64,000 nucleotides of DNA, taken from the NCBI GenBank assembly GCA_902810745.1, contig CADDYW010000001.1, positions 1-64,000 on the forward strand. The letters are read 5' to 3'. The notes under the pieces are model-generated. The model made no database searches, was not told the origin of the DNA, and saw nothing but the letters and a program-made list of their open reading frames with translations. This document shows positions 45,500 through 55,145 of this stretch, piece after piece. Within the stretch, counting starts at the first letter, position 1, and every line of letters starts with the position of its first letter. Origin of the DNA: Chloroflexota bacterium. Lineage in GTDB: Bacteria; Chloroflexota; UBA6077; FW602-bin22; CADDYW01. A program made the position numbers and the translations under genes.

Positions 45500-46443
45500 G
45501 ATCCGTGCGCTACGTTATCCCCGAGCAGATCCGGCGACGGTTTGGCGAAGCCCTGCGCATCGACGAGCCCCTTGCCCCGCATACGAGCTTCCGAATCGGC
45601 GGGCCTGCCGATCTCTTCATCGCGGCGCGAACGCGCGACGACATTGCCGATGCCGTGACAGCCGCCGAAGCGGCAGGTCTCCCCTGGATCGTCCTCGGGC
45701 GCTGCAGCAATGTCTTGATCCACGAGGACGGCATTCGAGGATTGGTCATTCGCAACGACGCCAGCTCATTTACCTTCGATCCCCGGACAGGCGTCGTCCA
45801 GTGTGACAGCGGTGCCAGGCTTCCGAGTGTGGGGGCACAGACCGCCAGGGCCGGTCTCGCCGGGCTCGAGTGGGCTGTTGGAATTCCGGGCAGCGTCGGC
45901 GGTGGCGTTGTCATGAACGCGGGCGCACACGGTGGCTGTATTGCCGACGTTCTCGCGTACGCCGAGATCCTCGACCACGGTCAGCGGTCGCAATACCCCG
46001 CGGCCGCACTCGAGCATTCCTACCGAGTGAGTCGCCTTCAGCGCGAGCGAGACCTGGTTGTGCTCGGCGCCGAGTTTCACCTCACCCCCTGCGCTCCAGC
46101 CGAGTGCCTCGCGCGTGTCCAGTCATTCCGACGACATCGCCAGGAAACCCAGCCGACGGATCCTGGTGCCGGATCAATCTTTCGCAATCCTCCACAGGCG
46201 TCGGCTGGCGCGTTAATCGACCGCGCCGGACTGAAGGGCACCAGGCACGGTGGGGCGTTGATCTCGCCCAAACACGGAAACTTCATCGTCAACGTCGATC
46301 ACGCGACGTTTGCCGACGTCGTCGCGCTCATCGACGTGGCACGGACCACCGTCGCGCGCCAGTTTGGTATCGACCTTCATCCCGAGGTCGAGTTCCTCGG
46401 ACCCGAGGGGCGACTGTCGCTCGATGAGGTACACCGGTTGTGA
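45496..46443 (+). CDS. murB: UDP-N-acetylenolpyruvoylglucosamine reductase
   Basis: MurB, 315 aa FAD enzyme that makes UDP-MurNAc. TSFRIGGPADLF near residue 30, GIPGSVGGGVVMNAGAHGG near 130-148, and GSIFRNP with the catalytic serine are family marks. LHPEVEFLG closes the protein, with the catalytic Glu. GTG start in the murC stop; the stop overlaps ftsQ. Confidence 0.95.
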   Translation: MRSVRYVIPEQIRRRFGEALRIDEPLAPHTSFRIGGPADLFIAARTRDDIADAVTAAEAAGLPWIVLGRCSNVLIHEDGIRGLVIRNDASSFTFDPRTGVVQCDSGARLPSVGAQTARAGLAGLEWAVGIPGSVGGGVVMNAGAHGGCIADVLAYAEILDHGQRSQYPAAALEHSYRVSRLQRERDLVVLGAEFHLTPCAPAECLARVQSFRRHRQETQPTDPGAGSIFRNPPQASAGALIDRAGLKGTRHGGALISPKHGNFIVNVDHATFADVVALIDVARTTVARQFGIDLHPEVEFLGPEGRLSLDEVHRL

Positions 46444-47240
46444 GCTGGAATCCGACGGACCGCCCAATCTATCGAGAGCACGGACGATTCGGTGCCATCC
46501 TGGGCGTGGCCAGGCTTATCGTAGGTGCCGTTCGGCTCACGCGATTGGTGCTGCACCGTCGCGTCCGCTACCTGGTGTTTCTTGCCGTGATCATTGCCGG
46601 GCTTGTGACGGTGATGGGCGATTCGGCGTTCCGGATCACGCACGTCGACGTTTACGGTACGCTGCTTCTCGATCGGTCAGCAGTGGTGAGAGCCGCGGGA
46701 TTGGTCGGCCAGAACCCGTTCACCGTGGAAACCAGCACGGTAAGGCAGCGTATCCTGGCCCTCGGCGTACCCGAAGAGGTATCGATAAGCTTCCATCTGC
46801 CGGATACTGCGATCGTCCAGGTAATCGAGCGCCAGCCAGCCTACGTCTGGAAGGCCGAAACGACGCTGTATCTGGTGTCGGACGATGGCACGATCCTGGG
46901 CCCGACGCGCGGGGTCCACGGACGCGTGGTCCTGGTGGATCTGGACCAGCGTCCGGTTCGCGTCGGGCAGAAGATCGATCCTCGCCCGCTTCGCGAAGCC
47001 GCGAACCTGCGTAACGCGTTGCCTCGCGTTGCCTCCCTCTCGCCAGCGACCTTCTCGTACTCACACGACCTCGGCGTTGTCATCTCGCTGAGCGACGGCC
47101 TGCAGGTCGCATTCGGCGACGACGACGATCTGGACGCGAAGCTGCGGGTGCTCGCGCCGGTGCTCCGAGCCGCGCTCGCGCAAAATCCGCGTCCTCGACT
47201 GGTCGACCTCCAGCTTGCCGATCATCCATTCTTCCGCTAG
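46440..47240 (+). CDS. ftsQ: FtsQ-type cell division protein
   Basis: 266 aa. A cytoplasmic tail (1-42), one membrane span (43-60), and an extracytoplasmic POTRA domain (about 64-133, FRITHVDVYGTLLLDRSAVVRA) followed by an FtsQ-type beta domain. It ends the dcw run. ftsA and ftsZ do not follow. GTG start overlaps murB; its TAG stop lies inside the first copy of the palindromic repeat. Confidence 0.85.
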   Translation: MSWNPTDRPIYREHGRFGAILGVARLIVGAVRLTRLVLHRRVRYLVFLAVIIAGLVTVMGDSAFRITHVDVYGTLLLDRSAVVRAAGLVGQNPFTVETSTVRQRILALGVPEEVSISFHLPDTAIVQVIERQPAYVWKAETTLYLVSDDGTILGPTRGVHGRVVLVDLDQRPVRVGQKIDPRPLREAANLRNALPRVASLSPATFSYSHDLGVVISLSDGLQVAFGDDDDLDAKLRVLAPVLRAALAQNPRPRLVDLQLADHPFFR

Positions 47241-47347
47241 TGGTGTGTCAAGCAGAAATTGATGGGTGGAGGCATTTGGGAAAATTGGCCCTGCGGGCCA
47301 ATTTTCCCAAATTGCTCCTCCTCATATTTCCGTTGGCGGGGCACTAG
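47234..47347. repeat. Palindromic repeat element, copy 1
   Basis: About 111 bases shared, with few differences, with 53445-53556. The core is an 18-bp perfect inverted repeat with a three-base loop TGC (47274-47291 and 47295-47312). The ends read CTAGTG (47237-47242) and CACTAG (47342-47347), 6-bp inverted termini. The left end includes the ftsQ stop codon. No ORF. It looks like a non-autonomous element (MITE or REP-like), family unknown. Confidence 0.8.
47274..47312. other. Hairpin of repeat copy 1
   Basis: Perfect 18-bp stem, ATTTGGGAAAATTGGCCC with its complement, loop TGC. Strong enough to stall or end transcription or to protect a 3' end after ftsQ, but no U tract follows. Confidence 0.75.
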
Positions 47348-47533
47348 ATGGAAGTCCGTGCAGACGTGCGAACCCGGCCTCGGCGCTGGCCCGCTCGCCT
47401 GCTCGCCCTCCTCGCCCACCCGTCTGACGCGCTCAGTCGGTCGCATCGCCGCGTCGTTCGGTCGTGGCGCCCCTCTGGCCCGCAGTGTGCAGTTCAAGGG
47501 GTGAGAAAATCTCCACGCTAAGGAGGAGGTCTC

Positions 47534-47788
47534 GTGGCTCACGTTCCTCTCGACGACGCGAAGCAGCTGTTTCATGAAACCAACCCCAAGACCTGGTCAC
47601 AGTTCGGGAAGGTGCTACACCAGCACAAGGGGAAGGTGGACGGTATCTCGGACACGTTGATCGACCTGATGATGGAGATGGTGCCGTACTTCGAGCAGAC
47701 CCACCAGCCATTCCCGAATACCCCGGAGCAGCTCCAGGATCTCCTCAATCGTCGCCTGGCCGCGACGGGACACAAGGGGGTTCCGTAA
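47534..47788 (+). CDS. Small soluble protein of unknown function
   Basis: 84 aa with a strong ribosome site AAGGAGGAGG (47521-47530) before a GTG start. Mostly helical: AKQLFHETNPKTWSQFGKVLHQHKGKV and DTLIDLMMEMVPYFEQTHQPFPNTPEQLQDLL. No membrane span, signal peptide or known motif. It lies alone between the repeat element and an MFS gene. I do not recognise a family. The start site and composition argue that it is real. Confidence 0.65.
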   Translation: MAHVPLDDAKQLFHETNPKTWSQFGKVLHQHKGKVDGISDTLIDLMMEMVPYFEQTHQPFPNTPEQLQDLLNRRLAATGHKGVP

Positions 47789-47946
47789 GCGCGACGCGAG
47801 GGAGACGCACCATGCGCTATCCTGGAGGAGTCGAGCGCCCGGACCGCCCATAGGACGCGAGTCGGCCGGGCGGCATCCGTGCGGGGCTTGCCAGCGGCAA
47901 TCGGTGAGGGCTATGATTGCCAGGCACCATCCACGCGGAGGCCCGG

Positions 47947-49182
47947 TTGCGGCTGTTCTGGCGACTCCTCAAGATCGACCCAAGCACGACCGAAGGGCGC
48001 CGTCTGGTCGCCTTCCTGGGTCTCACATTCTGCGCGGGTATCCTGGGTGGCCCCGTCTCGTCACTGCTCTCGATCTACGTCGACTCCCAGCTTCGTCAGC
48101 CGCCGACCTTCACGTCCACCCTGCTCGCCTTTCAGCTCGCGATGACCGGCGTCTTTGCCGTCGTCAGTGGTGTCGTCGCCGATGGCCTGGGCCAGAAGCG
48201 GACGCTTCTTCTGGGCCTCGTCGGTCTCCCGCTCGCGTCGGCCGTCTTCATCTTGCACAGCTTTTGGATTCTGGCCGGGGTGGTTCTCAGCCTGGGAATG
48301 ACCAACGCGCTACAGACCATCGGAGGACAATCGTATCTCCTCGCCGCAGCGCCGCGAGCAAAGCTCGGCGGCTTGACCGCGTTGTATTTCCTCGGGAACA
48401 CGCTGGGAGGAGCAGTCGGCAACGCAATCGCTGGACCTGCTGCCGATCGCTGGGGCTTCACCATCGTCGGCATCGGCGGCCTCGCGCTGTCACTCGTGCT
48501 CCTCGCGATCACGCTGGTGCTCCTCCCCGAAGCCGCGGTCGCGCCGGAAAGCCGGCGCGCGAGACCGTTGGAGCTCCTGGTAGCCTACGGACAGCTGATG
48601 CGACGGCGGCAGATCGTCCTGGTCGGCGTGATTCGCTTCCTCCCCACCTGCTTCTACGGAACGACGAGCCTGCTGATCCCGTTGCTCGTCTATCGGCTCA
48701 GCCACAGCGTCGCGGTCGCCTCGCTGTACGCGACCGCCAGCTTGCTGCTGTCGACCACGGCGCAGCAGATTGTCGGTCGCGTGATCGATCGGGTCGGTCC
48801 GTTTGGTCCGGTGCGAATCCTCACGGGATTTCTTCCGATCGTTGCCTTCCTGACCGCGCTGGCCACCGAGAACCTCCCGGCGCTCATCCTGGCCGGGCTC
48901 GGTGCCACGGCAACGCTCTGGTGCATCTCGACAACGATCCCGCCGCTCGTTCGCGAGGTTTCACCCGTCGCCTCCCAGGGTCGCGCCCTCGGCCTAGTCC
49001 ATCTGATCTGGAGCTCGGGAATGCTGATTGGCACCATCACGGCCGGGCCGTTCGTGATCATTAGCTCGCACCTTCCATTCGCCCTGTTCGCGGCCTGCAG
49101 CGTGCTCGCGTTCCCCGCTGCGATGGCTCTCCGCCGCTTCATCCCGGCCATCACCGATCGCGTGGTCGAGACTGCCGGATAG
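47947..49182 (+). CDS. MFS transporter
   Basis: 411 aa with about 12 membrane spans. Motif A-like VVADGLGQKRTLLLG near residue 78, then GNTLGGAVGNAIAGPAADRWGF. Substrate unknown. The TTG 47947 start has GGAGG (47937-47941) five bases upstream, better than the further TTG at 47917. The HAD gene follows 12 bases after its stop and may be cotranscribed. Confidence 0.86.
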   Translation: MRLFWRLLKIDPSTTEGRRLVAFLGLTFCAGILGGPVSSLLSIYVDSQLRQPPTFTSTLLAFQLAMTGVFAVVSGVVADGLGQKRTLLLGLVGLPLASAVFILHSFWILAGVVLSLGMTNALQTIGGQSYLLAAAPRAKLGGLTALYFLGNTLGGAVGNAIAGPAADRWGFTIVGIGGLALSLVLLAITLVLLPEAAVAPESRRARPLELLVAYGQLMRRRQIVLVGVIRFLPTCFYGTTSLLIPLLVYRLSHSVAVASLYATASLLLSTTAQQIVGRVIDRVGPFGPVRILTGFLPIVAFLTALATENLPALILAGLGATATLWCISTTIPPLVREVSPVASQGRALGLVHLIWSSGMLIGTITAGPFVIISSHLPFALFAACSVLAFPAAMALRRFIPAITDRVVETAG

Positions 49183-49194
49183 GGGAAAGGCGAG

Positions 49195-49566
49195 ATGCCA
49201 GATAAAACGGTGTGCATCGACCTGAACGGTACGCTCGACACCTACACGGGTTGGCGTGGCGCGGACTACTGGTATCCGCCGCGTGCTGGCGCCGACAGGT
49301 TCCTACGTGAGCTGAGACAGCGAGGCTACGATGTTGTCATCTTCACGACCCGCGATCCTGCCGCGGTCTGGGAGTGGCTCCGCCAGAACGGCCTTGCTCA
49401 GCACGTGAGCGACGTCACGAACGTAAAGGTGCGCGCGATCGCGTACGTCGACGACCGAGCCATTCCCTTCCGCGGCGACTACGCCGAGACTCTTCGGGAG
49501 ATCGAGGCATTTCGACCCTACTGGGAGAAGCACAGAACGGCGGGGAAAAGGGGAGTGGACGATTGA
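49195..49566 (+). CDS. HAD superfamily protein with altered motif I
   Basis: 123 aa, a compact HAD fold without a cap domain. Motif I reads D9-L-N11-G-T-L, so the second Asp (usual general acid) is Asn. Motif II has FTTRDP (Thr51-Thr52), and motif IV is YVDDRAI (D86, D87). The Asp-to-Asn change argues against simple phosphatase chemistry, although some HAD proteins tolerate it. GGGGAAAGGCGAG precedes the ATG. It converges on the next MFS gene. Confidence 0.75.
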   Translation: MPDKTVCIDLNGTLDTYTGWRGADYWYPPRAGADRFLRELRQRGYDVVIFTTRDPAAVWEWLRQNGLAQHVSDVTNVKVRAIAYVDDRAIPFRGDYAETLREIEAFRPYWEKHRTAGKRGVDD

Positions 49567-49587
49567 GACCTCGACCGCGTCTCCCAT

Positions 49588-50889
49588 TTAGACGGACGTA
49601 ACTGGACGAGGAAGCTCCTTCTCCGCGCCCGGACTGCGCCGTCGAAAGGCCGCAAAGTAGACCACGCATCCCGCGAGCAGCAGGACCGCGCTCGCGGTAA
49701 AGATCGAGCCGAATCCCAGGTTGATGATCATGAGTCCCGCGAGCCCGCTCGCGATGGACCAGCCCAGGTTCCAGCTCGTCGAGCGCAACGCGGCCAGCGT
49801 CGCGCGTGACCGAGCTGGCACGAGCTCCATCGAGAACGCGTTATCGGTCGGCCACGTGAGAGTGAAGAACAGCGTCCTAACGACGTACAGAGCGCTTCCG
49901 ACCCAGATATCCGAGGTGAAGGCAAGACCCAGGAGGACTGGCACACACGCAACGCGACAGATGACAACGGTGGGAATCGTACCGAAGCGCTTCCCGACCG
50001 CTGGGCCGGCCAGGCTTCCGATCGTCATTGCACCTGCCCCGACGGCGAAGATCCCGCCAATCGTGGCCGTCGAGGCGTGGAGCCGCTGATCGAAGAAGAC
50101 GTTGAGGAACGGAATCGCGAAGCCGGTCGAGGCCGCGGTCAGTCCATTCGCGACGACCATCCAGGCGAGGTCACGATGGACCTGCCGTGCGTCGTCGGCT
50201 CCGGTCGACGATGCGACCATCGAGGTATGGCTGTCCGCCTCCTTACTGTCGTCCGCCAGCCGTAAAGGTAGGAAAGCCAGTCCGGCGACGCCTGCCGCGA
50301 TGGCCAGGGTCCACGCGTAACCAGTGCGAGCCTGCCCTGGCGCCGGGGTCAATAGTGGCGGCAGTATTCCCCCGAGAATGCTACCGACCGTCGAGGCCAG
50401 TGCCTGCGCTGCGAAGTATCCGGCGAAAGCGCGGGCACGCTGCTCTGGCCTGGCATTATCCATGATGAAGGGCGCGCTCGGAACGAAGATGTGCGCGAGA
50501 GCGATGCCATTGAGGATCGCAAGGAGAATCAGGGGAATCGCGGCTACTGTCGCGACAAGACCTGCCGTCGAGAGGGCCAGAACGGCGATCGCAGCGAGCA
50601 GGACGCGGCGGTTGCCGAATCGGGTACAGAGCGGGCTTGCCAGCAGCGCGGCCCCACCGATGGCAGCTGTATTTGCGAAGGAGAAGAGTCCGAGAAAATC
50701 TGCACGGTACCCGATCTCGATCAGGTAGAGATTAAGGATAACCGCCTGGATGCCAATTCCGACGAACACCAGGAAGACGCTGATGAGAAGCATCCAGAGA
50801 TTGTGGCGAAAGCCAGCTCGTCCAGGGAGGGAGCACGGGTACTTGACGGGATTCCGATCGCGGTGGCGCACTCGGGGCTGAACCGACAC
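49588..50889 (-). CDS. MFS transporter
   Basis: 433 aa with about 12 membrane spans and a long central loop (about residues 205-235). Motif A-like region ASPLCTRFGNRRVLL near residue 85. Substrate unknown. The GTG 50889 start has GAGG nine bases upstream; a GTG six codons in is an alternative. It diverges from the methyltransferase gene. Confidence 0.86.
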   Translation of the reverse strand: MSVQPRVRHRDRNPVKYPCSLPGRAGFRHNLWMLLISVFLVFVGIGIQAVILNLYLIEIGYRADFLGLFSFANTAAIGGAALLASPLCTRFGNRRVLLAAIAVLALSTAGLVATVAAIPLILLAILNGIALAHIFVPSAPFIMDNARPEQRARAFAGYFAAQALASTVGSILGGILPPLLTPAPGQARTGYAWTLAIAAGVAGLAFLPLRLADDSKEADSHTSMVASSTGADDARQVHRDLAWMVVANGLTAASTGFAIPFLNVFFDQRLHASTATIGGIFAVGAGAMTIGSLAGPAVGKRFGTIPTVVICRVACVPVLLGLAFTSDIWVGSALYVVRTLFFTLTWPTDNAFSMELVPARSRATLAALRSTSWNLGWSIASGLAGLMIINLGFGSIFTASAVLLLAGCVVYFAAFRRRSPGAEKELPRPVTSV

Positions 50890-51034
50890 GGATATTTACC
50901 TCGGCGAAAGGATCGGAGCCAGCTCGCGTTTCGGGTACCGCCGAGCACGCGTTGCCCACGGCTGAAAGCATTGTACAACAGGTCGTGAGCGTTTTCGCGC
51001 TTGGTAATCGATGCAGCGCGAGACGCTGGCGATG

Positions 51035-51040
51035 TACAAT
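51035..51040 (+). promoter_or_regulatory. Possible promoter -10 before the methyltransferase gene
   Basis: TACAAT at 51035-51040, about 146 bases before the GTG start; the -35 region is unconvincing. The leader is long enough for a regulatory RNA, but I see no SAM-I, SAM-II or cobalamin riboswitch consensus. Confidence 0.3.
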
Positions 51041-51185
51041 TAGGTGGGTAAAAGTATCCGGATCTGAACGCACGAGGGGCCACCGGCGCAAACGCGATCG
51101 GACGGACTGCTTGAACGTCTTTTCGACGCCCTGCGCTTCCTGCTCCGAGGTGGTGACGCCGGTCGACGGCCAAACAGGAGTGATC

Positions 51186-53051
51186 GTGCAGCACCCATTT
51201 CTGGCCCGGCTCGATCAAGGTCCATTGCTGGCTGATGGCGCGATGGGCACCCAGCTCTTCGCCCGGGGTATTCGGTCGGATCAGTGCCTGGACGCGATCA
51301 ATCTGACCCAGGCCGATCTGGTCCAGCAAATCCACCGCGAATATATCGCGGCCGGTGCCGAGCTGATCGAAACCAATACCTTCGGTGCCAATCGATTTCG
51401 TCTCGCTGCGTTTGGGCTCGAAGACCGCGTCGGAGAGATCAATCGGCAGGGAGCACGCATTGCCCGTGAAGCCCGCGACATCATGGGCGAGTCCGTTTTC
51501 ATCGCCGGTGCCATCGGGCCCTCCGGAGCGCTCTTCCAGCCACTCGGCCCGGTGACGTACTCCGAGGTGGCAGATGCCGTTCAGGAGCAGGTCGAGGCCC
51601 TCGCCGAGAAAGGCGTCGACGTTCTGATCTTCGAGACCTTCACCGACCTCAACGAGCTGACAATCGCGGTGGACGCAGCTCAGAAGGTCTGCGACCTGCC
51701 GATCATCGCCCAGATGAGCTTTGACGACAATCGCCGCACGGCCTCTGGCCACGACGTGGTTCAGGTCGTCGAGGCTCTCGAGCGTCTCGACGTCGCGGTG
51801 ATGGGCGTGAACTGCGGCATCGGACCGCAGCAGGCGCTTGACCTCGTCGGACAGTTCAATCACATCACGGAGACACTCATCTCGGCGATGCCCAATGCCG
51901 GGTATCCGGTTCGTGTTGCCGGCCGGATCTCCTACATCGCGACTCCGGCGTACTTCGCCAGCTTTGCCCGTGGCGCGCTGGCTTCGGGTGCCCGTCTGAT
52001 CGGAGGATGCTGCGGCACAACCCCGGACCACGTCAAGGCCATGCGCGATGTGGTTCACGCGGGAGAGCCCAGCCGGCCAGTCGTCGTTGTCTCTCCTCGA
52101 CCGGTACCGACCGCCGCCCCGGCTCCTGGCGATCAGCCACCTCCGACCCGCCTGGCTCGAAAGCTGGCGAAGCGGGAGTTTGTCATCAGTGTCGAGCTGG
52201 ACCCGCCACGCGGGTCGAACCCGACGAAGGCTCTCAAGGGTGCAGCGCTGCTACGCGACGCGGGCGCGGACCTCATAAACATCGGCGACAACGTGATGGC
52301 GAAGGTGCGCATGAGCTCGCTCGGGCTGGCCCTGCTCATCCAGCAGCACGTCGGGCTCGAGACGCTGATCCATTTCACTCCGCGCGATCGCAATCTGATG
52401 GCGGTCCAATCGGACTTGCTCGGGGCACACGCGCTCGGCATCCGGCATATTCTTGCCGTGACTGGCGACCAGCTTCGGTCCAGTACCAACCCGCCGGTCA
52501 CGGCGGTGTGGGATGTGGACGCGATTGGGCTGATTGGAATTCTCAAACGGATGAACCAGGGATCCGACTACGCCGGTACGTCGATCGGGCGACCGACACA
52601 ATTTCTGATCGGCTGCGCGGTCGGCCCCAACGCGGCGGATCTCGATCACGAGCTCGATCGCCTGCAACGGAAGCTAGACGCGGGCGCGGATTTCGTGATG
52701 ACGCAGCCGCTCTTTTCCATGGAGCAGCTCGAGCGTTTCCTGGACCGCGTGGGATCGCTTCCGGTTCCATTGATTCTCGGCATTGTCCCCCTGGAGAGCT
52801 ATCGGCAGGCAGAGCTGCTGCACCACGAGGTTCCAGGGTTTAGCGTGCCGGACGACGTGCGCGAACGCATGCGACTGTCAGGTGACCACGGCGCCGAGGA
52901 AGGGCTGAGGATGGCTGACGAGTTCGTCGAGCAGGCGCGCACACTCGTTTCCGGAGTTTACATTATGACGTCCTACGGTCGCTACGACGCGGCAATTGCC
53001 CTGACGCGCAAGCTGGCGGCTTTGAGGAGGACAGAGGAAGAAGCATCGTGA
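51186..53051 (+). CDS. Bifunctional homocysteine S-methyltransferase/methylenetetrahydrofolate reductase
   Basis: 621 aa fusion of the kind known from B. subtilis YitJ. The N-terminal half (about 1-290) is a Zn-dependent homocysteine methyltransferase with ligands C210 (GVNCGIGP), C275 and C276 (GGCCGTTPDH). After a Pro-rich linker, the C-terminal half (about 325-600) is an FAD-dependent MTHFR with SVELDPPRGSNP at its start and DFVMTQPLFS. It can supply and use methyl groups for methionine synthesis in one protein. The start is GTG 51186, five bases after CAGGAG; GTG 51180 is less well placed. Confidence 0.92.
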   Translation: MQHPFLARLDQGPLLADGAMGTQLFARGIRSDQCLDAINLTQADLVQQIHREYIAAGAELIETNTFGANRFRLAAFGLEDRVGEINRQGARIAREARDIMGESVFIAGAIGPSGALFQPLGPVTYSEVADAVQEQVEALAEKGVDVLIFETFTDLNELTIAVDAAQKVCDLPIIAQMSFDDNRRTASGHDVVQVVEALERLDVAVMGVNCGIGPQQALDLVGQFNHITETLISAMPNAGYPVRVAGRISYIATPAYFASFARGALASGARLIGGCCGTTPDHVKAMRDVVHAGEPSRPVVVVSPRPVPTAAPAPGDQPPPTRLARKLAKREFVISVELDPPRGSNPTKALKGAALLRDAGADLINIGDNVMAKVRMSSLGLALLIQQHVGLETLIHFTPRDRNLMAVQSDLLGAHALGIRHILAVTGDQLRSSTNPPVTAVWDVDAIGLIGILKRMNQGSDYAGTSIGRPTQFLIGCAVGPNAADLDHELDRLQRKLDAGADFVMTQPLFSMEQLERFLDRVGSLPVPLILGIVPLESYRQAELLHHEVPGFSVPDDVRERMRLSGDHGAEEGLRMADEFVEQARTLVSGVYIMTSYGRYDAAIALTRKLAALRRTEEEAS

Positions 53052-53428
53052 CAGGTGGCTGGAATCACTCTCCGGAAGGGGCGCCGCCGCACGAACCGAT
53101 CGACTACGAGTCGGCGGTTCGGGATCTGTTTCGGCGCCGCCGTCGGAAGAGAATCATCTCCTGGCTCACAAAGCTGCCGGATCCGCGACCAACGGGACCC
53201 GGGCAGGTCGTTCTGGCTGGTTTGATCCTCATGCTCGTCGGCTGGCTGATACCGGTTGCGCATGGGGCTCTCCTGGTGGGAATCTTCGTCCTGGTGTTCG
53301 GATTCATCTCCGGACTGTTCCAGCCGCGCGGCCGCAGCGTCGTCTGGCGCAACCGCACAATCGAGATTCCACCCGAGCCACGGTCGACCGATCGTCTGTA
53401 CTATCTGGTCTACCGACGCGCGAAGTAG
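53048..53428 (+). CDS. Small membrane protein of unknown function
   Basis: 126 aa with two membrane spans (about 54-73 and 75-92) between a basic N-terminal stretch (FRRRRRKRIISWL) and a C-terminal tail. No family recognised. The GTG start overlaps the preceding stop by four bases, so it is cotranscribed with the methyltransferase. Confidence 0.6.
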   Translation: MTGGWNHSPEGAPPHEPIDYESAVRDLFRRRRRKRIISWLTKLPDPRPTGPGQVVLAGLILMLVGWLIPVAHGALLVGIFVLVFGFISGLFQPRGRSVVWRNRTIEIPPEPRSTDRLYYLVYRRAK

Positions 53429-53444
53429 CTGGCAACCCCGCCTG

Positions 53445-53556
53445 CCGCTACTGGTGTGTCAAGCAGAATTTGATGGGTGGAGGCATTTGGGGAAATTGGT
53501 CCTGCGGGCCAATTTCCCCAAATTGCTACCCCTCATATTTCCGTTGGCGGGGCACC
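53445..53556. repeat. Palindromic repeat element, copy 2
   Basis: Second copy of the element at 47234. The core stem (53485-53502 and 53506-53523) keeps the loop TGC. One pair is changed from A-T to G-C on both sides, and one becomes a T-G pair. The terminal inverted repeat is less exact than in copy 1. It lies in the convergent space between the 126-aa gene and nuoN. Confidence 0.8.
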
Positions 53557-53687
53557 ACAGTCGCTCGTCCACCGGGACGGCGCACGTCCGCCCGGGGCGA
53601 TGCGAGCCTGCCGATATGCGCTCTGCGTCGGAGCTCACCCGCTTTGTGGACGGCTCACCGAGTCGCGTCCAGCGCGGACGAGCCGGC

Positions 53688-55145
53688 CTATCTCAGGGCC
53701 ACCAGCGTTGCCTCGGCGGCATTCAGCGGAAAGACCGGCAGGATACCCATCTGGAGCGTCAAGATCACCGCGACCACGAGGATCAGTGCGAGTGAGCCAG
53801 GAATCCGGATTGCGGGCGCGCTCGCGCCAGCCGGCTGCATGTACATTGCGACGATGAGCTTGAGATAGTAGAACGTCGCAACGGCGCTGGTAAGAACACC
53901 GATAATTGCCAGATCAAGGTATCCGCCCTGGATCGCGGCGCTGAAGACGTACAGCTTCGCCATGAATCCTGCCGTCAGGGGCACGCCCGCCAGCGACAGC
54001 ATGAAGATCGCCATCGCAGCGGCGAGGATCGGACTGCGGCTCGCCAGTCCCTCGAAGGCAACCATGTTCGTGTCCTCGTCCAGCTTTCCACTCAGCCCCT
54101 GAACGACCGCGAACGCGCCCAGGTTCGTTACGGCGTAGGCAGCCACGTAGAACAGGAGGGCGTTCCGACCGGCCGTGCCCGATGCGACCACGCCAATGAG
54201 CATGTAACCCGCCTGGGCAACGCTCGAATAGGCAAGCATCCGCTTGACGTTTCGCTGCGTGACCGCCGCGAAGTTTCCGAGAATCATGCTCAGGATCGCG
54301 AGCCCCCAGAGAATGTTCGCCCACTCATTCTGCAGGGACGGAAGAGCCTCGGCGAGGAGGCGGAGCAGCGCGGCGAACACCGCCGCCTTGGTGCCCACCG
54401 ACATGAACGCCGTAATGGAGGTCGGGGCTCCTTCGTACACGTCCGGAGTCCACATGTGGAATGGCACGAGAGACAGCTTGAAGGCAAAGCCCACGAGAAT
54501 AAGACCGCAAGCCGCGAGCAGCAGTGGACTGTGAAGCACTGCGCCGTTCTGAATCGCCGAAGCGACGGCTCCAAACTGAGTCGAGCCGGTCGCGCCATAC
54601 ATCAAGGCGGTTCCGTAGACCAGGAAGCTCAGCGAAAACGCGCCGAGCAGAAAGTACTTGATCGCCGCTTCCTCGGAGGTCAGGCGATCTCGAGCAAAAC
54701 CAGCGAGGACGTACAACGAGATCGAGAGAACCTCGAGGCCGATCAAGAGAACGATCAGGTCCCGGCTCGAGGCGAGTATGAGCATCCCCGCACCGGTGAA
54801 CAGAAGGAGCGTGTAATACTCCCCCGCGCTGAATCCTTCGCGTGAGACGAACTCACTCGAGAGGATAATCGTGAGTGCGACAATGCCGAGACATACCGCG
54901 CCGAAGAAGACAAAGTAGCTATCGACGACGATTGACCCGCCATACGCGGAGCGGTTCTGACCCCACAGCGCAATCGCGGCGGCGAGGCTAGCTCCAACGC
55001 CGATCAGCGAAATCGCCGCGAGGACAGCGCTCTGCTCGTGGCGGACGAACAACCCAACAACCAGGACGATCATCGCCGTCACTGATATGATCAGCAGAGG
55101 CAGAATCGCCACCAGGTCGATCGGAGGTGGCTGGATCACTGGCAC
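53688..55145 (-). CDS. nuoN: NADH-quinone oxidoreductase subunit N
   Basis: 485 aa, antiporter-like membrane subunit of complex I, about 14 spans. Conserved segments are EYYTLLLFTGAGMLILASS, KYFLLGAFSLSF and LAYSSVAQAGYMLIG near the middle, with proton-channel lysines in TM7 and TM8 regions. The start is GTG 55145 with GGGAGGG seven bases before. A longer open frame to 55352 overlaps nuoM and is not supported. Last gene of the operon. Confidence 0.94.
   Translation of the reverse strand: MPVIQPPPIDLVAILPLLIISVTAMIVLVVGLFVRHEQSAVLAAISLIGVGASLAAAIALWGQNRSAYGGSIVVDSYFVFFGAVCLGIVALTIILSSEFVSREGFSAGEYYTLLLFTGAGMLILASSRDLIVLLIGLEVLSISLYVLAGFARDRLTSEEAAIKYFLLGAFSLSFLVYGTALMYGATGSTQFGAVASAIQNGAVLHSPLLLAACGLILVGFAFKLSLVPFHMWTPDVYEGAPTSITAFMSVGTKAAVFAALLRLLAEALPSLQNEWANILWGLAILSMILGNFAAVTQRNVKRMLAYSSVAQAGYMLIGVVASGTAGRNALLFYVAAYAVTNLGAFAVVQGLSGKLDEDTNMVAFEGLASRSPILAAAMAIFMLSLAGVPLTAGFMAKLYVFSAAIQGGYLDLAIIGVLTSAVATFYYLKLIVAMYMQPAGASAPAIRIPGSLALILVVAVILTLQMGILPVFPLNAAEATLVALR

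Follow-up and report, generated by a model that had tools for sequence, protein, structure and literature searches.

Two near-identical palindromic repeats in a contig of a Chloroflexota bacterium raise the question of whether their hairpin persists because it is selected as a structure or because it is regenerated by mutation. In the window (the whole 64,000-nucleotide stretch that was analysed), these repeats were confirmed at 47231-47344 and 53442-53555, each 114 nt long and 93% identical to the other. We consider it very likely that they belong to a MITE-like, non-autonomous family of 103-bp elements that is moved by a transposase acting in trans and whose hairpin is maintained mainly by template switching. 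The case calls for caution, as stem covariation among repeat copies is usually taken as proof of a selected RNA structure; here it is accompanied by loop inversion, a sign of a mutational cause.

A dispersed 103-bp element and its target-site duplications

The first-pass annotation had described a two-copy element. The genome examined (5.59 Mb in 293 contigs) holds about 40 copies spread over many contigs: 34 of full length, together with derivatives shortened by deletion and copies truncated at contig ends. Identity among copies ranges from 88 to 100%. Their alignment delimits the element proper as 103 bp of non-coding DNA with the ends TGGTGTGTCAAG...GTTGGCGGGGCA and, over the 34 full-length rows, the layout TGGTGTGTCAAGCAGAAATTGATGGGTGGASGCATTTGGGAAAATTGGCCC-loop-GGGCCAATTTTCCCAAATTGCTACCCCTCATATTTCCGTTGGCGGGGCA. 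Terminal inverted repeats are present but imperfect (TGGTGTGTCAAGCAGAAATTGATGGG versus TGCCCCGCCAACGGAAATATGAGGGG), and the ends pair in the fold. An element of this size has no room for a transposase gene. The features of the two copies and their flanks are as follows:

46440-47240, + strand: ftsQ (Pfam POTRA_1 and FtsQ_DivIB_C), with copy 1 inserted at its stop codon
47237-47240, no strand: left target-site duplication of copy 1, CTAG, including the native ftsQ stop codon TAG at 47238-47240
47241-47343, + strand: copy 1 of the element (103 bp), TGGTGTGTCAAG...GTTGGCGGGGCA, with terminal inverted repeats that are imperfect
47344-47347, no strand: right target-site duplication of copy 1, CTAG
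53448-53451, no strand: left target-site duplication of copy 2, CTAC
53452-53554, + strand: element copy 2, 103 bp, between convergent genes
53555-53558, no strand: right flank of copy 2, CCAC, one mismatch from CTAC

The convergent neighbours of copy 2 are an ORF ending at 53428 and a gene for an NADH-quinone oxidoreductase subunit at 53688. The 6-bp inverted ends read earlier in copy 1 (CTAGTG/CACTAG) are correct as letters but not in meaning: they consist of the palindromic 4-bp duplication CTAG plus the element's terminal TG/CA.

Target-site duplications, which the first-pass annotation had proposed to look for, were found. Left and right 4-bp flanks are identical in 30 of 38 copies, or in 31 when the shorter left end of copy L031 is read as CTAG; over 20,000 trials with shuffled flank pairings, matches averaged 8.7 and never exceeded 20. 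Of the 25 copies whose left 4-mer is not CTAG, 18 have matching flanks. The duplicated 4-mers are CTAG, CTAC, GTAG, ATAG, CTAA, CTAT, and CTCA. The outer target bases covary on both sides (ATAG/ATAG, GTAG/GTAG, CTAA/CTAA, CTAT/CTAT), and the duplication is therefore 4 bp; a TA-only duplication, of the IS630 type, was ruled out, since these outer bases vary yet match on both sides. CTAG is the commonest target although CTAC/GTAG sites are ten times more frequent (84 versus 813 sites in 180 kb of sampled DNA). A transposase making 4-bp staggered cuts at NTAN-type targets, with CTAG preferred, would leave such duplications. The earlier suggestion of a mobile non-autonomous element thus agrees with the roughly 40 copies, their paired 4-bp duplications and the lack of an internal transposase, and a transposase supplied in trans would have dispersed the family. 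CTAG- or YTAR-like 4-bp targets occur in the IS5 and IS701 groups and in IS481 (CTAG). The element's preference is similar and serves as a lead only: not all of its targets CTAC, GTAG, and ATAG conform to YTAR, and no member of these groups with the element's ends was found in the genome.

Three copies (L012, L027, and L031) have a left end lying 5-6 bases further in, with CTAG directly before TGTCAAG or GTCAAG, as if the transposase could cut at an alternative end. Deletion derivatives were also observed (L036, L032:6683-6733, L038, L064, and L065). Three derivatives lack 27 nt of the hairpin, a loss that would fit a deletion between the AAATTG repeats bordering part of it. The other two, which run from GTCAAG to the right end with nearly the whole core gone, measure only 44 and 50 nt.

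A search of the genome for an autonomous partner, using end patterns with up to 3 mismatches, matched element copies only, and its rve, DDE_Tnp_1, and Y1 loci share no ends with the element beyond shuffled controls. One sub-threshold DDE_5 fragment lies at a contig end. The possibilities raised earlier of a known IS fragment or of a full-length IS with the same ends found no match, as no IS found in the genome shares these ends. Short-read drafts commonly lose multi-copy IS. As the search turned up no partner transposon sharing these ends, the enzyme that moves the element is hypothetical. Two IS that encode DDE_Tnp_1 transposases and have unrelated ends were seen, one at L059:953-2412 (G000 contig C2) with 45-nt imperfect terminal inverted repeats (87% complementary) and one at L060:687-2135 (G000 contig C219) with perfect 20-nt terminal inverted repeats.

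No copies were detected in 60 genomes, in 29 genomes of the class, or, by end pattern, in 150 relatives; the single 3-mismatch match in relatives, in G081, lies inside a coding sequence and the element is absent there. Exact pattern scans of the genome and viral collections gave one match each, with the rest of the element missing, and these were considered to be chance matches; the right-end pattern had zero matches in both collections, and the plasmid collection gave none. The element was unmatched in an Rfam covariance-model scan even at E up to 1.

The element is a new family of a known kind, the MITE-like elements (PMC2229807), in that it is short, non-coding, without a transposase, multi-copy and dispersed, with terminal inverted repeats and a target duplication. 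Bacterial MITEs such as RUP, Correia/NEMIS, and MITEAba12 are about 100-115 bp long, non-coding, bounded by terminal inverted repeats and a target duplication, and mostly intergenic with stable stem-loop transcripts (PMC2229807, PMC6382973). The element resembles these three in size class, non-coding nature, terminal inverted repeats, target duplication and mostly intergenic location, whereas its sequence is unrelated to theirs and it is set apart by an inner palindrome whose loops are inverted, by its heavy use of stop codons and by the lack of a partner IS among those found. Its duplication is a 4-bp NTAN; most MITE families have 5'-TA-3' termini according to a review (PMC2229807), and MITEAba12 duplicates 9 bp (PMC6382973).

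Insertion at stop codons

After the element and one duplication were removed by script, 12 of 39 insertion sites fell exactly on a TAG stop codon, compared with 32 of the 357 non-coding sites that carry these 4-mers (Fisher p = 3e-4); genes were called from codon usage with a simple, crude caller trained on this window alone. The four sites called "inside a gene" involve low-scoring ORFs only. The copies occupy 11 convergent and 6 divergent locations, a 3'-biased position that is explained by insertion at stop codons without any function.

Copy 1 illustrates how such an insertion is tolerated. The ftsQ stop codon had been placed inside this copy; it actually lies in the CTAG duplication, outside the element. 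The native FtsQ C-terminus reads ...HPFFR-TAG, and the ftsQ genes of same-family relatives, where the element is absent, stop at the homologous residue with TAG (HPFFR-TAG in one of them). The insertion of copy 1 therefore doubled the stop codon without altering FtsQ. A target duplication that contains TAG lets the element enter stop codons with the gene undamaged, and this would account for the many surviving copies found there. Survivorship may contribute to the enrichment, since insertions inside genes would be removed.

Covariation and loop inversion in the hairpin

An 18-bp stem with a TGC loop was confirmed in both copies of the window:

47274-47291, + strand: left arm of the hairpin, copy 1, ATTTGGGAAAATTGGCCC
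47292-47294, + strand: hairpin loop, copy 1, TGC orientation
47295-47312, + strand: right arm of the hairpin, copy 1
53485-53502, + strand: left arm of the hairpin, copy 2, with A-to-G at stem pair 42/66 and C-to-T at pair 50/58
53503-53505, + strand: hairpin loop, copy 2, TGC orientation
53506-53523, + strand: right arm of the hairpin, copy 2, with a T-to-C that compensates the left-arm change

The compensated stem pair first noticed there was confirmed, copy 1 reading GGGA/TCCC and copy 2 GGGG/CCCC; the T-G pair also holds, with GGTCC facing GGGCC in copy 2. The fold is very stable on both strands, at -63.8 kcal/mol for copy 1 (z -6.5) and -55.6 kcal/mol for copy 2 (z -4.5), and 0 of 200 shuffles were as good in either case.

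In the covariation alignment (34 rows, 32 distinct), pairing in the inner 18-bp stem reaches 99.3%. Two of its pairs changed on both sides, one from A-U to G-C in four copies and the other from U-A to C-G in one copy and to G-C in another. The covariation is real but limited, amounting to three two-sided events in the inner stem: six two-sided cells were observed compared with 0.7 in shuffles, and 0 of 500 shuffles reached six. The first-pass annotation had weighed the case of only two copies with no covariation elsewhere; many copies were found, and three compensated changes occur among them. Pairing in the outer stem is 91.0%, and the two cells there with two-sided changes sit at its very end, in columns of alternative left ends. 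Uncompensated inner-stem changes occur in five copies (L006, L017, L018, L025, and L028), so that arm correction is incomplete. The number of minor alleles per site is 0.44 and 0.17 in the stem arms versus about 0.53 outside, a lower variability that would also fit selection.

The loops fall into two types, TGC-type in 15 copies (13 TGC, one TAC, and one TGT) and GCA-type in 19 (18 GCA and one GTA), and TGC/GCA and TAC/GTA are reverse-complement pairs. When loop type was compared with the G/C variant at alignment column 31, and likewise with the compensated pair, all four combinations were seen each time; this free combination with linked variants indicates that the loop state changed, or was exchanged, repeatedly. 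Loop states could also spread by recombination between copies. Scrambling of copies by the assembly was judged unlikely to underlie the loop states, because the overlap between contigs ending within copies is exactly 127 bp, implying that the assembly word exceeded the 103-bp element in length.

Origin of the hairpin's pairing

Template switching between the arms of inverted repeats homogenises the arms and inverts the spacer (PMC8604942). RNA hairpins have been proposed to arise and be maintained in this way, leaving loop inversion as a footprint (PMC8794818). Cases are known from yeast genes and from rRNA and microRNA hairpins (PMC8604942, PMC8794818). The element has in common with them the homogenisation of arms and the full inversion of the loop, and it differs in that these features are read from dozens of copies of a single mobile element within one genome, where the two loop orientations are nearly equally frequent. 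A DNA polymerase that switched template between the palindrome arms would copy a change from one arm into the other, and the same switching would flip the loop between TGC and GCA, so that the stem would be kept near-perfect mainly by mutation. Since arm matching with loop inversion is the published signature of template switching, the covariation is more likely mutational than selected; template switching explains both the covariation and the loop inversion, whereas selection for RNA pairing explains the covariation only. We infer that template switching is the cause and that the hairpin itself is not under selection. Of the two options first put forward, a hairpin selected or regenerated, the evidence favours the second.

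A functionally selected hairpin, acting as RNA at transcript 3' ends to stabilise mRNA or stop transcription, with changes retained that keep the pairing, seems unlikely to us. The stability of the fold on both strands, the lower number of variants in the stem arms and the excess of two-sided changes over every shuffle all agree with it, as does the gene-end bias (11 convergent versus 6 divergent locations, 12 copies on stop codons). However, the stop-codon position is accounted for by target choice, six copies lie between divergent genes, and an intrinsic-terminator scan of 47000-53800 found no G+C-rich hairpin followed by a T run at either window copy. Such selection also does not predict exact reverse-complement loops at near-equal frequency. 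Finally, copies without the hairpin persist with their target duplications intact (three of the 70-nt core type and one of the 50-nt type), which indicates that the hairpin is unnecessary for a copy's persistence.

Loop inversion and stem homogenisation might instead take place in transposition, via a hairpin or single-stranded intermediate, and not in ordinary replication. Both features are spread over all copies, and the results do not separate this reading, which we regard as improbable, from replication errors. Double-strand transposition with staggered cuts typically leaves paired 4-bp duplications, unlike the single-strand transposition of the IS200/IS605 type. In addition, loop inversion of short palindromes is documented outside transposons (PMC8604942, PMC8794818). 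We give only a slim chance to a palindrome flipped and homogenised within the element's own transposition cycle; if this were true, loop orientation would record transposition events and the hairpin would be an active intermediate.

A REP/BIME-type palindromic repeat moved by a RAYT (Y1) transposase, for which the element's short, palindromic, intergenic and multi-copy nature and one Y1 match in the genome could speak, is scarcely credible, as the 4-bp target duplications are present and are not known to flank REPs, and as the REP-associated transposase check proposed earlier yielded only this lone, weak Y1 match, on a 4.5-kb contig without the element's ends.

About 40 copies in one genome allow arm correction, loop inversion and hairpin loss to be counted. 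Elsewhere in the window, a sub-threshold match to the SAM-SAH riboswitch at 52656-52726 (25.4 bits, gathering threshold 40), probably due to chance, lies inside a single ORF (51111-53051) that fuses a homocysteine S-methyltransferase domain to methylenetetrahydrofolate reductase.
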